NCBI GenBank assembly: GCA_017744605.1
Contig: JAGIAZ010000005.1
Location: forward strand, 82,197 to 146,196
Length of the DNA: 64,000 bases
DNA from: Sphingobium sp.
GTDB lineage: Bacteria > Pseudomonadota > Alphaproteobacteria > Sphingomonadales > Sphingomonadaceae
Reading direction: 5' to 3'
The notes beneath the pieces were generated by a model. The model made no database searches, was not told the origin of the DNA, and was given only the letters and a program-made list of their open reading frames with translations. This document shows positions 1,247-24,918 of this stretch, one piece after another (position 1 is the first letter of the stretch; the number at the start of each line of letters is the position of its first letter). The position numbers and the translations under genes are program-made.

Positions 1247-2379
1247 GCCGCCACCTTCTGCATCTGCGCCGCCTCGTCGATCGCTGCGGCGGCGCGCTGG
1301 ATTTCTTCGACCTCGGTATAGCGCCCGAAGCCGATGCGCAGGGAAGACCGTGCCTCGGCGTCGCTCAGGCCGATCGCCCGCAATACATGGCTCGGCTTAC
1401 CGGTCCCGCTGGCGCAGGCCGAACCCAGCGAGACACACACATTCCGGAGCGACGAGATCAGCCTGGCAGCATCGACGCCCTCACGCCGGATATTGAGGTT
1501 GCCATGATAGCGCGCGTCCAGCGCGCCATTGATCGTCCAGCCCGCAAAGGCCTTGAGCGCCGCCTTCCAGAGCCGCTCGACATGCGCAATGCCGGTTTCG
1601 CGCTGCGTCATGGCGACCTGCGCCGCCGCGCCGAAACCGGCGCAGAGCATAGGAGAATTGGTGCCGGGGCGGAGGCCATATTCCTGGCCGGAACCATGCA
1701 TCAAAGGCGGCAGTTCCAGCCCCTCGCGCAGCCAGAGCGCGCCGATACCCTTGGGCCCGTGCATCTTGTGGGCGGTGATCGCGATCATGTCGCTGTCCGG
1801 CATTGCCAGCTTGCCGAAGCCCTGCACCGCGTCGCACAACACCGGCACATCGCTTGCGCGGGCAATGGCAATCAGAGCGTCCATCGGCTGAATGACGCCA
1901 ATCTCGTTATTGACCTGCATGACGGCGAGCAGCGCCGCGCGCTCGTCGATCGCGGCCTCGGCGATATCCGGATCGACGAGCCCGTCGGGTCCGACGGGCA
2001 GGATCACCGGTTCGAAACCCTCGTGCCGCAGCGAACGCACCGTTTCCAGCACGGCGGCATGTTCGGTAGCGATCGTGACGACGCGCCGGCGCTCGGGCGG
2101 CGCGCTGCGTGCGGCGCCGATAATGGCGATATTGAGCGCCTCGGTCGCGCCCGACGTGAAAATGAGGTGGCCGTCGCCCTTGCCCAGCGCCGCCTTGACG
2201 CGATCGCGCGCCAATTCGACGTCGGCGGCAGCAATGCGGCCGATGCGATGGGCGCTGTTCGGATTGCCATAATGAGCCATGGCCGCCGTCATGGCCGCTT
2301 CAGCCTCCGGCGCGAGCACCGTGGTCGCCTGATAGTCCAAATAGATCATGTCCGGCTGCCAGAATATAGGGCGAGCCAT
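1243..2379 (-). CDS. Cysteine desulfurase (NifS/IscS-like)
   Basis: IYLDYQATT start, ITAHKMHGPKGIGALW PLP-lysine motif, SLGSACASGTGKPSHVL active Cys loop. Confidence 0.9.
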   Translation of the reverse strand: MARPIFWQPDMIYLDYQATTVLAPEAEAAMTAAMAHYGNPNSAHRIGRIAAADVELARDRVKAALGKGDGHLIFTSGATEALNIAIIGAARSAPPERRRVVTIATEHAAVLETVRSLRHEGFEPVILPVGPDGLVDPDIAEAAIDERAALLAVMQVNNEIGVIQPMDALIAIARASDVPVLCDAVQGFGKLAMPDSDMIAITAHKMHGPKGIGALWLREGLELPPLMHGSGQEYGLRPGTNSPMLCAGFGAAAQVAMTQRETGIAHVERLWKAALKAFAGWTINGALDARYHGNLNIRREGVDAARLISSLRNVCVSLGSACASGTGKPSHVLRAIGLSDAEARSSLRIGFGRYTEVEEIQRAAAAIDEAAQMQKVAA

Positions 2380-3395
2380 TGCGCAAGAAAGGCCTGAATA
2401 TCGCTTTCCCGCGTATTATGCCCCAGACTGACACGAATAACCTCGGCGGCGTGCTCTTCTGGCCACCCCATGGCCGTCAATACGCCGCTCGCCTTGAGCG
2501 TGCCGGAGGAACAGGCGCTACCCGCCGACACGGCGATCCCGGCCATATCGAAGCGGATAAGCTGTGCCTGTGCGCTCATGCCCGGCATACGATAACTGCC
2601 GATCGTGGCGAGACGGGACGACGCGGACGCGACGATCACGCCACCGGCCGCGGAGACGGCCGCATCGAGTTCACCACGCCAGTGCAGGGCCTCATCGAGC
2701 CATTGCGCACCTTGTTCAACCGCGGCGGCAAACCCCGCCGCAAGCGGCATGGCCTCGGTCCCGGCGCGATAGCCCTGCTCCTGACCGCCGACCGGATGCA
2801 GGAGAGCCAGATCCTGCACCAGCAACGCGCCGATGCCGACAGGGCCGCCGAGCTTATGTGCGCTGATCACGGCCATGTCCGCGCCCTGCGGCAGAGGCAG
2901 CTTGCCCGCACCCTGGCTGCAATCGGCCAGCAACTTTGCTCCGGCGGCATGGATGCGCTCGGCCAGGTCGTCCAAAGGCTGGATGACGCCGGTCTCGCTG
3001 TTGACCTGCTGGATCGCGAAAAGCGTGCCCGCCTCGATATGGTTCGGCAGCAGGACGATGCCGTCCGCATCGACCGGCAGGCGACAATCAGATCGAACGT
3101 GGCGGAGCACGGCGTCATGCTCGGTCGCGCTCGCCAGCACGGCATTTGCCTTGCTCCTGGTCAGCGCAATTGCCAACGCCTCGCTCGCACCGGCGGTGAA
3201 GAGCACGGCCCCTCCCCAGTCCAGCGCCGCTGCAAGCCGCGCGCGCGCGCCCTCGAGCAGTGCCTTGGCTGCGCGCCCTTCAGCATGCGGCGACGATGGA
3301 TTGGCCCAGGCGGAGAAGCCTTGATCCATGGCCGCGCGCGCCGCGGGCAGCAGCGGCGTTGTCGCGGCATGATCGAGATAGATGCGTCCCGTCAT
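2346..3395 (-). CDS. Second cysteine desulfurase / class V aminotransferase
   Basis: MTGRIYLDHAATTPLLP..., SAHKLGGPVGIGAL, SAGSACSSGTLKAS. Confidence 0.87.
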   Translation of the reverse strand: MTGRIYLDHAATTPLLPAARAAMDQGFSAWANPSSPHAEGRAAKALLEGARARLAAALDWGGAVLFTAGASEALAIALTRSKANAVLASATEHDAVLRHVRSDCRLPVDADGIVLLPNHIEAGTLFAIQQVNSETGVIQPLDDLAERIHAAGAKLLADCSQGAGKLPLPQGADMAVISAHKLGGPVGIGALLVQDLALLHPVGGQEQGYRAGTEAMPLAAGFAAAVEQGAQWLDEALHWRGELDAAVSAAGGVIVASASSRLATIGSYRMPGMSAQAQLIRFDMAGIAVSAGSACSSGTLKASGVLTAMGWPEEHAAEVIRVSLGHNTRESDIQAFLAQWLALYSGSRT

Positions 3396-3539
3396 CGGGC
3401 TTTCCTGCAGTTGGTCTCGATACGGGTCAAGGCACAGCACCCAAGACAATTGCGAAATGGCGTCCGCCCTCTATATAAGCGGCCATCCGGCAGCAGTAGC
3501 GCTCGCACCGTCTGCCATCAGTCCAATATCCCAGGTGCC

Positions 3540-4196
3540 ATGCCAGACGTCATTTTTCCCGGTCCCGAGGGCCGTCTCGAGGGCCGCTTCAGCCCGCCGC
3601 CCCGTCCCCGCGCGCCCGTCGCCCTGATCCTGCATCCGCATCCGCAGGGCGGCGGCACGATGAACGACCGCATCACGCAGGCGCTCTACAAAACCTTCGT
3701 GAAGCGCGGTTTTGCGACGCTTCGCTTCAATTTCCGGGGCGTGGGACGTTCGCAGGGCGTCTTCGACAATGGCATCGGTGAACTGTCCGACGCGGCAGCC
3801 GCGCTCGACTGGGTGCAGAGCTTCCATCCGGAGGCACAGACGACCTGGATCGCCGGCTTCTCCTTCGGCGCCTGGATTTCGATGCAGTTGCTCATGCGCC
3901 GGCCGGAAATCCGCGGCTTCATCTCGGTCGCCCCGCCCGCAAACATGTATGATTTCTCGTTCCTCGCGCCCTGCCCGGCCTCCGGCATCATCGTGCAAGG
4001 CATCAATGACGAGGTGGTCTCCGCCAATTCGGTGCAAAAGCTGGTCGACAAGCTGCGCACACAGAAGGGCATCACGATCCATCATGACGAGATTCGCAAC
4101 GCCAATCACTTCTTCGAGCATGAGCTCGACCAGTTGATGATGAGCGTCGACAATTATCTCGACATGCGCCTCGCGCCGGATTCGCCGATCAGGTGA
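3540..4196 (+). CDS. Alpha/beta hydrolase
   Basis: LILHPHPQGGGTMND, GFSFGAW nucleophile elbow, NANHFF. Confidence 0.85.
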   Translation: MPDVIFPGPEGRLEGRFSPPPRPRAPVALILHPHPQGGGTMNDRITQALYKTFVKRGFATLRFNFRGVGRSQGVFDNGIGELSDAAAALDWVQSFHPEAQTTWIAGFSFGAWISMQLLMRRPEIRGFISVAPPANMYDFSFLAPCPASGIIVQGINDEVVSANSVQKLVDKLRTQKGITIHHDEIRNANHFFEHELDQLMMSVDNYLDMRLAPDSPIR

Positions 4197-22352: not shown

Positions 22353-23156
22353 ATGAACGCTTTGGTGCCGATCGAGCAGAGTAACGTGGCAGCGTACCGC
22401 GCCTCCACGGACGCTGCCGAGCTTTGCAAGGAGATCGTGGTCGCCACGGCCACGAATATTCAGGGCCGCAAATATGTCTGTGTCGAGGGCTGGCAAGCGA
22501 TTGCTGTGGCCCATGGGTGCGCGGCTTCTGCCCACTCTGTCGAGCGTGTCGATGGCGGAATCCGTGCCATCGGACAGGTTCGCCGCATGTCGGACGGGAC
22601 CGTTCTGGCCGAGGCCGAGGGCTTTGTCGGTGAGGACGAAACCACTTGGTTCGGCGGCGAACAGACTACCAAATGGGGCACGAAAAATCTACCGAAAAGG
22701 CCGGATTACGCCATTCGTGCCATGGCGCAGACGCGTGCGATCAGTCGCGCCTGTCGCTCGGCATTCGCCCATGTCGTGGTCATGATGAACGCCAATCTTT
22801 CGACGACGCCGGCCGAGGAAGTGCCGAGCGGCGGGTTCGAGGATGCGCAAGACGCCGAGTTCGTCGAGGTCGCAACCAAGCCGGTCGCGCGCGAGAAGAT
22901 GGACGGACCATTCCCGACGAAGACGGCGCTCAAGAAGGCGGCTGACAACTTCATCGGCGATCTGCGCAAGGTGGCCGAACTCGGCGAACTGGAAGCGATC
23001 CTTTCGGCGCCCTCTACGCAGGCCCTCAAGGAACAGCTCAAGCGCTGCTGGCCCGGCTATCTCGACGGCCGCGACATGCCGGAAGAGTTCGAGCCAATCA
23101 TCGACATGGTCAACCGCCTCCGCGAAGAGATGGCCGTACCGGAGGCCGCGGAATGA
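22353..23156 (+). CDS. Phage recombination-region protein (candidate ssDNA-annealing type)
   Basis: [17 protein letters not shown]..., [29 protein letters not shown] coupled to ssb. Confidence 0.6.
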
Positions 23157-23611
23157 GCGGCTCGGTGAACAAGGTCATTCTCGTCGGCAATCTCGGCGCG
23201 GATCCCGAGATCAAGTCGTTCCAGAACGGCGGGCGCATCGCCAATCTGCGCATCGCGACCAGCGAGACCTGGACCGACCGCGCCTCCGGCGAGCGCCGCG
23301 AGCGCACCGAGTGGCACAATGTCGTCATCAACGGCGACGGCCTGGTCGGCGTGGTCGAGCGCTATCTGCGCAAGGGCAAGAAGGTCTATATCGAAGGCTC
23401 GCTGCGCACCCGCAAATGGCAGGACCAGAATGGCCAGGACAAGTATACGACCGAGGTCGTGCTCTCTGGCCCGGGCGCCGTCATGACCATGCTCGCCAGC
23501 GCGGGTGGTGAAGGCGGTGCGCGCACGCACTATCAAGGCGAAGAAGGTCATATCCCCGGCTATGACGCGCGCAACGCGCGGGAAGAGCTGGACGATGAGA
23601 TTCCATTCTGA
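23153..23611 (+). CDS. ssb: Single-stranded DNA-binding protein
   Basis: [44 protein letters not shown], acidic C-terminal DDEIPF. Confidence 0.95.
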
Positions 23612-24195
23612 TGCTCCCCCGCCGCATCCTGAAACCCGAGAAACGAGCAAGTCGCTGGCGTAGCCAGGCGCTCAATTGCCATGCTCTGCGAGGCGTTCTT
23701 CGCTATGAAGCGGGAAAGCTGTTTTGGCTTGAGCGCCCCCGCGCCATGATTGCAGATCAGCGATCATTCAAAACCTGGAACGCTCGCTTCGCTGGGCAAG
23801 AGGCTTTCACCGCCAAGCATAGCGAGGGCTACCGCTGCGGGACGATTTTTGGATGCAACTTCTTCGCCCACCAGATCATTTGGGCACTGCATTTTGGCGA
23901 TGCACCCGGCGAGATCGATCACATAAATGGGAATCGCGCGGATAACAGGCTCGAGAATCTCCGCGCTGTTTCTCGCGATGAGAACCGCCGCAATGTGAAG
24001 CGACCTTCCACCAACTCAAGCGGCGTAGTCGGCGTATACCGCATGGGTTCAGGCTGGCGCGCCAGCATTGGGATAGATGGGCGCTCGGTCCATCTCGGCA
24101 ACTTTACCGAATTTGATCAAGCGTGCACGGCTCGTAAGCTGGCCGAAGTTCAATACGGGTTTCACGAAAATCACGGGCGCTCAGATGCTGCCTAG
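23611..24195 (+). CDS. HNH endonuclease with AP2-like DNA-binding domain and an extra 20-aa N-terminus
   Basis: HQIIWALHFGDAPGEIDHINGNRADNRLENLRAVS HNH; SGVVGVYRMGSGWRASIGIDGRSVHLGNF AP2-like. Confidence 0.88.
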   Translation: MLPRRILKPEKRASRWRSQALNCHALRGVLRYEAGKLFWLERPRAMIADQRSFKTWNARFAGQEAFTAKHSEGYRCGTIFGCNFFAHQIIWALHFGDAPGEIDHINGNRADNRLENLRAVSRDENRRNVKRPSTNSSGVVGVYRMGSGWRASIGIDGRSVHLGNFTEFDQACTARKLAEVQYGFHENHGRSDAA

Positions 24196-24535
24196 GCGTA
24201 TTCCGAAAGCGCCCAAGCGCGCCTCGCGGTGGAGATCGCAGGCCCATTGTTCGTTCGTACGCTCCCATGCCTGCTGCAATTGCCACAGCATGGCTGCGAT
24301 CGAGGTCGCGCATGTTCGGATCGGGAGCGGCGCGGGCGTTGGCCAAAAACCCGATGACTGGCGGACGGTGAGCCTCTGCCGTGATTGTCACGCAACCCAA
24401 CACCGTAACGGCGAACGGTCTTTTTGGGCCGCCTACAAAGTCGCGACAGGGCAGGACGTGGAAACCCTCATTGAGGAGTTCATCACAGCCTCGCCCAAGC
24501 GTCTTGAGATCAGACAGGAAAGGGCAGCGCAATGA
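24185..24535 (+). CDS. Second HNH/zinc nuclease
   Basis: MLPRRIPKAPKRASRWRSQAHCSFVRSHACCNC...EVAHVRIG...CRDCHATQHRNG. Confidence 0.75.
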   Translation: MLPRRIPKAPKRASRWRSQAHCSFVRSHACCNCHSMAAIEVAHVRIGSGAGVGQKPDDWRTVSLCRDCHATQHRNGERSFWAAYKVATGQDVETLIEEFITASPKRLEIRQERAAQ

Positions 24536-24918
24536 GCCACCTCATCCGCCTCACCAACTGGTATCAGCGCCAGCGCGCCAAGGATCTCATCGATCGCGCG
24601 CCTGATGGCTACATCATGAAGGTCGATGAGCCTCGCCGCACTTGTGACCAGAACGCGAAGCTCTGGGCAATGCTCACCGACATCTCGCACGCCAAGCCGC
24701 TCGGTCGCCGACACACGCCCGACGACTGGAAGGCCATCTTCATGAATGCCTGTGGTTGGGAGTGTCAATTCGTTGAAGGGATCGACGGACGCCCCTTCCC
24801 CAAAGGCTTCAAATCATCCGAGCTGAGCAAGTCTCAGATGTCGAGCCTTATCGACTTCATGCGGGCCTTTGGTGACCAGCATGGTGTGCGCTGGGGCGAG
24901 GAAGCGAGGGCAGCATGA
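24532..24918 (+). CDS. NinB-like recombination protein
   Basis: PRRTCDQNAKLWAMLTDIS.., DDWKAIFMNACGW, SSELSKSQMSSLIDF. Confidence 0.82.
   Translation: MSHLIRLTNWYQRQRAKDLIDRAPDGYIMKVDEPRRTCDQNAKLWAMLTDISHAKPLGRRHTPDDWKAIFMNACGWECQFVEGIDGRPFPKGFKSSELSKSQMSSLIDFMRAFGDQHGVRWGEEARAA

Follow-up and report, generated by a model that had tools for sequence, protein, structure and literature searches.

How an endonuclease gene can come to lie at the very start of another gene, which nevertheless begins anew behind it, is the question raised by a prophage locus of Sphingobium sp. In the textbook view, phage homing endonucleases are found in introns or inteins, or as free-standing genes away from their cut site. 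In the window (the whole stretch of 64,000 nucleotides that was analysed), an endonuclease ORF in the replication and recombination module of the prophage is located between ssb and a DUF968/YbcO-like HNH nuclease gene, and both ORFs open with nearly the same 20 residues. The answer that we hold with considerable confidence is that a homing endonuclease gene was inserted into the 5' end of the DUF968 gene after codon 20, and brought with it a replacement 5' end derived from a divergent homologue.

Organization of the locus

The features of the locus are collected in Table 1. The stop codon of ssb (TGA, 23609–23611) overlaps the ATG of the endonuclease ORF at 23611, forming TGATG. At the other end, the DUF968 gene begins with the ATG at 24185 and overlaps the endonuclease stop codon (TAG, 24193–24195). 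The product of the DUF968 gene begins with MLPRRIPKAPKRASRWRSQAHC..., and the leader in the downstream copy is MLPRRIPKAPKRASRWRSQA. The two leaders share 17 of 20 residues and 35 of 60 nucleotides, and the same codon is used at 2 of the 15 identical residues that are degenerate. A preliminary description of this DNA had given the same layout of ssb, TGATG, leader and endonuclease, with 17 identical residues and 13 of 15 codons changed; sequence and coordinates bear out the layout, and the recomputed codon count agrees. Its span of 23611 to 24250 starts correctly and ends too early, since the second gene extends to 24535.

Table 1. Features of the ssb–endonuclease–DUF968 locus in the window
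Feature	Coordinates	Strand	Support
ssb (prophage)	23153..23611	+	SSB PF00436, E=5e-34
Upstream leader copy, 20 codons from the 5' end of a DUF968 gene that serve as start of the endonuclease ORF (putative relic of the invaded allele)	23611..23670	+	
Endonuclease ORF, 194 aa, made up of the leader and an HNH_3 homing-type endonuclease	23611..24195	+	PF13392, E=3.7e-16
HNH_3 catalytic region, motif EIDHINGNRADNRLENLR intact	23863..23991	+	Pfam, residues 85–127
Overlap ATGCTGCCTAG, in which the restored gene begins inside the endonuclease stop	24185..24195	+	Sequence
Downstream leader copy, the putative restored 5' end, synonymously divergent	24185..24244	+	Leader comparison
Restored DUF968/YbcO-like HNH nuclease gene, 116 aa	24185..24535	+	PF06147, E=7e-11; conserved Cys/His aligned
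ninB, the usual downstream neighbour of DUF968	24532..24918	+	PF05772, E=1e-21

The endonuclease (P0001) matches HNH_3 with 58.9 bits against a curated Pfam cut-off of 24.8. It had been described as an AP2/HNH enzyme; the HNH part holds, whereas an AP2-like domain has no significant Pfam match in P0001 and gives weak sub-threshold matches in most of the relatives scanned. The DUF968 protein of the window possesses both the match to the DUF968 HMM and the conserved Cys/His positions. A longer duplication, in which both copies would continue with AATTGCCA past residue 20, was rejected as a chance likeness, because AATTGCCA is not shared by the homologous alleles and because the N-terminus of the endonuclease itself begins there.

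Over 353 nt, the prophage ssb and the chromosomal ssb of the host, which is situated beside a feoB-like gene (L002), are 97% identical; the two differ in the C-terminal linker. By this comparison, the gene was evidently captured or exchanged between the phage and host genomes in recent times.

Source of the leader and uninterrupted alleles

The leader peptide is conserved at the N-terminus of the DUF968 family, as seen in 10 aligned homologues. The check for the same leader on endonucleases elsewhere found no other case among 196 endonuclease loci, where the next best score is 31 compared with 103 in the window. Among the matches listed, most of the phage endonuclease relatives align to P0001 only from approximately residue 20–30. 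A leader that is present throughout the DUF968 family and absent from the other endonucleases of this set derives from a DUF968 gene, and is no part of the endonuclease proper.

Uninterrupted ssb–DUF968 alleles were also searched for, and they exist. In a collection of 106 DUF968 alleles, all told with the peptide conserved at the N-terminus, 15 contain a TGATG overlap with ssb identical to that of the window. Pseudanabaena phage Pan3 has the order ERF-ssb-DUF968-ninB and L012 the order ssb-DUF968-ninB, both without an endonuclease, and ninB follows DUF968 in Pan3, L010, L012 and L013. Judged from these alleles, the uninterrupted state is the ordinary one. In Pan3, the GenBank record has no annotation for the DUF968 gene that separates ssb from ninB (L004:2001-2330). 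Elsewhere, another HNH_3 endonuclease relative is located downstream of a DUF968 gene (L469:3275).

Recurrence at other phage genes

Endonuclease relatives were drawn from IMG/VR, phage and genome collections. The anchored screen compared a start-anchored upstream peptide, in frame with the endonuclease, with a downstream peptide whose start is at most 30 nt from the endonuclease stop, and 19,182 cross-locus pairings served as the null. The leader pair of the window scores 82 against a null maximum of 49, and this match is not due to chance. Seven of the 139 testable loci reach p ≤ 0.0024 each, with 0.33 expected. Apart from the window, six cases are distributed over five further genes, namely those for the portal, the small terminase and the fibre-tail adaptor and two unknown ones. 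The highest score among these six is that of the fibre-tail adaptor gene (L129, score 51, MTDRLVKVLQQ/MTDRLIKVLQQ), followed by a DUF6192-like gene with a weak, sub-threshold Pfam match (L033, score 45), L165 (score 44), the portal gene (L288, score 40), the small-terminase gene (L138, score 38) and the same gene as in L033 (L125, score 33). In several of the seven cases, the stop of the endonuclease touches or overlaps the restored start. Pooled over the seven, 17 of 59 codons are kept at degenerate identical residues. Because approximately 5% of the tested endonuclease loci have this arrangement, leader, endonuclease and restored start represent one of several insertion modes of such endonucleases.

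Several candidates were set aside. At L147, L298, L175 and L329, MTN...LP starts both the endonuclease and the primase gene directly behind it. This match is too weak (p of about 0.04), and the MTN..LP leader is partly the normal endonuclease N-terminus, although a leader duplication of very small extent may be involved. The matches at L280 and L317 are an ordinary N-terminal motif of the endonuclease, and several matches from unanchored screens of upstream regions are false and of low complexity. The C-terminal matches at L043/L041 are intergenic repeats; on both viral contigs, the endonuclease gene has non-coding repeats resembling GGACCACGG..TGTTGCATAA on either side.

A mirror image of the arrangement is found at the 3' end of genes. 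In L266 (IMGVR_UViG_3300042861_000953, 2300-3460), a DNA polymerase gene ending with ...PPDWCADLPLEVEASIMNRYGKG is followed by the endonuclease and then by a relic, MTTPPVWAEGLPLDVEASVMGRYGK. The enzyme between the two copies of the C-terminus is a related HNH endonuclease, and the C-terminal duplication scores 96 against null maxima of 52 and 42 in two runs of the comparison. From its sequence, L266 looks like a phage counterpart of the 3' form known in fungi. L191 (IMGVR_UViG_3300042563_000297, 2700-3720) is a possible second 3'-end case, in which the upstream HNH gene ends with HKYLPLVEQWLRGS and the relic HKYLSLVGQWLK is situated about 150 nt 3' of the endonuclease; its score of 51 is weaker than that of L266.

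Native and foreign copies at occupied alleles

The portal case provides empty and occupied alleles side by side. The leader fused to the endonuclease in L288 is identical to the empty alleles L356 and L357 at 38 of 39 nt, compared with 22 of 39 nt for the restored start. The flank of L288 aligns to L356 at 87% as far as L288:3004 (codon 13), and the alignment restarts at 3564 (L357) or 3574 (L356), so codons 1–14 are replaced and native sequence is back at about codon 15. Over the first 15 portal codons, natural alleles are 89–98% identical pairwise, and the restored L288 gene is 56–58% identical. Some of the 17 differences in 39 nt of the restored copy are amino-acid changes found in other natural alleles. 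These alignments show that the fused leader is native and the restored start foreign.

The same is seen at the DUF6192-like gene. In L033, the left flank and leader match the empty allele L205 with 88% identity as far as position 1291. Neither the endonuclease nor the adjoining stretch aligns; the alignment resumes at 2156 (89–92%), and from there the gene body is about 92% identical to L206. The restored codons 1–60 are 50–61% identical to L205/L206, and codons 21–60 are nearer to L208 (65–67%). Judged by these breakpoints, the left flank and the body of L033 are native and the restored codons 1 to about 67 foreign. Leader fusion and restored start are both present in L033 and L125, which come from different phages; their endonucleases are 66% identical and inserted in the same gene at points about three codons apart, as expected from site-specific insertion.

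The preliminary description had proposed an insertion into the 5' end of the downstream gene with restoration of its N-terminus, and the empty sites at L288 and L033, which exhibit the same anatomy, support it. The two checks that it called for, on uninterrupted alleles and on the leader in other endonucleases, had also turned out in its favour. Both comparisons show that insertion of the endonuclease into the 5' end of its target brought in a divergent replacement end as well.

Direction and codon divergence in the window

A search of phages, plasmids, 94 congeneric genomes and IMG/VR for a close relative of the window prophage with an empty site found none, and a P0002 scan of genome contigs gave no confirmed relative. 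The leader itself is short, at 20 codons. The DUF968 body is at most 66% identical in nucleotides to any allele collected, and the similarity of both leaders and the body to other DUF968 alleles is saturated, hence silent on which copy is native. The direction in the window is taken by analogy with L288 and L033, according to which the upstream leader would be the relic of the invaded allele. Ordinary mosaic recombination without homing would also bring a leader relic with its endonuclease, from a phage whose DUF968 gene it had disrupted, next to the intact DUF968-ninB of another phage, and the replacement end would then never have belonged to a mobile unit. Phage genomes are mosaic, the near-identity of the prophage ssb to the host gene means that exchange has happened at this locus, and the similarity data of the window fix neither direction nor donor. 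However, several other genes have the same arrangement, with related endonucleases and stop/start overlaps, and in the portal case native sequence returns no more than 1–2 codons from the point of insertion, which leaves a minimal replaced tract. Mosaic recombination is the best of the alternatives, and still an unlikely one.

The restored N-terminus had been called recoded. The divergence itself stands, with 2 of 15 codons kept, and special recoding is not required. Because synonymous differences are also numerous between natural DUF968 alleles (median codon identity at identical residues of 42%), the downstream leader is most simply taken from a divergent natural homologue. The 13% codon identity of the window pair is within the lowest 0.6% of 2,877 natural pairs, which may reflect chance or selection for a restored end that escapes recognition by the enzyme. 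A local duplication of the 5' end, followed in place by synonymous drift or selection for recoding and without a foreign donor, would fit a codon identity below 99.4% of natural allele pairs, as if recoding had been selected. Against it, the restored end of L033 is nearer to another lineage (L208) over about 40 codons, and in L288 the change is concentrated in the restored copy (17/39), with the native copy nearly unchanged (38/39). We give this duplication a slightly smaller chance than mosaic recombination.

Tandem paralogues, two nuclease genes that kept a common ancestral N-terminal peptide and diverged after duplication, are very improbable: both products are HNH nucleases and their leaders agree at 17 of 20 residues, but the likeness ends after residue 20, the HNH types are unlike (HNH_3 and DUF968), and the leader is family-wide in DUF968 and present in no other endonuclease relative. 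An intron or intein as the carrier, although the usual form in which homing endonucleases interrupt conserved genes, has a negligible probability, since the 5' end is present twice and not divided, the endonuclease ORF is closed by a stop of its own (24193–24195) and the downstream gene has a separate start in another frame, leaving no continuous frame through both exteins, and no Rfam family, those of introns included, reaches the gathering threshold in L014, L288, L033, L129 and L138.

Proposed mechanism

In the preferred reading, insertion together with a divergent replacement 5' end, the first 20 codons of the invaded allele would remain upstream, in frame with the endonuclease, and this relic would couple translation of the endonuclease to ssb and provide its start codon. 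The target protein would be kept, since the replacement 5' end is joined to the gene body. Neither copy would recreate an unbroken recognition site, and the element would be immune to its own enzyme. On meeting a phage that carries an empty allele, the enzyme would cut that allele near codon 20. Repair from the occupied copy, with ssb and the leader as the left arm and the gene body as the right arm, would then transfer the endonuclease and the replacement end as a single unit.

Comparison with known systems

In the open papers, main texts only, no phage or 5'-end precedent for end replacement was found. The nearest relatives of the arrangement replace 3' ends. WHO homing elements at the yeast nuclear gene FBA1 replace the 3' end, and the replacement end confers resistance (PMC7282813). 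As in the window, the endonuclease is beside its target, a divergent replacement end preserves the function of the target, and the old end survives as a relic; the WHO elements differ in the 3' position, an intein-derived enzyme with a zinc finger, the nuclear genome and displaced relics that decay, whereas in the window the replacement concerns the 5' end, and the relic has become the translated start of the endonuclease. The mobile ORFs of Allomyces atp6 and Glomus atp6/atp9/cox2/nad3 in fungal mitochondria also replace 3' ends (PMC3630166). They combine an endonuclease ORF with a foreign, mostly synonymous replacement end, and their native end is near-identical to empty relatives (PMC3630166), the same signature as in L288 and L033 at the opposite end of the gene. 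Their replacement is carboxy-terminal and mitochondrial, and other endonuclease classes are involved (for example LAGLIDADG in Glomus atp6). Because the 5' end is replaced and not the 3' end, the arrangement in the window is a 5' variant rather than a member of this published type.

Free-standing phage homing endonucleases within coding sequences, such as mobE/nrdA in Aeh1 and mobA/gene 60 in T4, split their genes (PMC2988022). There the two pieces reassemble, whereas the gene in the window is restored whole by the replacement end. Other phage homing endonucleases stand apart from their cut site (PMC12724721). In engineered home-and-rescue drives (PMC7968924), a cutter and a recoded rescue of the target move as one unit; these are synthetic CRISPR systems in insects, and the resemblance is one of logic only.

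Significance

At this locus the target itself appears to be the exact site of a free-standing gene, which mends the damage with a divergent gene end. Since the same arrangement is found at several unrelated phage genes, it appears to be a general strategy by which such parasites inhabit a conserved gene. With moderate confidence, less than for the insertion itself, we suggest that phage AP2/HNH endonucleases, in addition to their places in introns and inteins, form a natural "home-and-rescue" class at the ends of conserved genes, which uses the start of the target and in which a recoded end, selected to escape the enzyme, provides immunity and rescue. The arrangement can account for chimeric 5' ends and repeated N-termini of phage genes. 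The duplicated leader marks the likely target site, and this signature could serve to predict where many HNH endonucleases that are still uncharacterised have their targets. At the portal, an empty and an occupied allele form a pair open to direct testing, and the arrangement as a whole would be a natural counterpart to engineered rescue drives.
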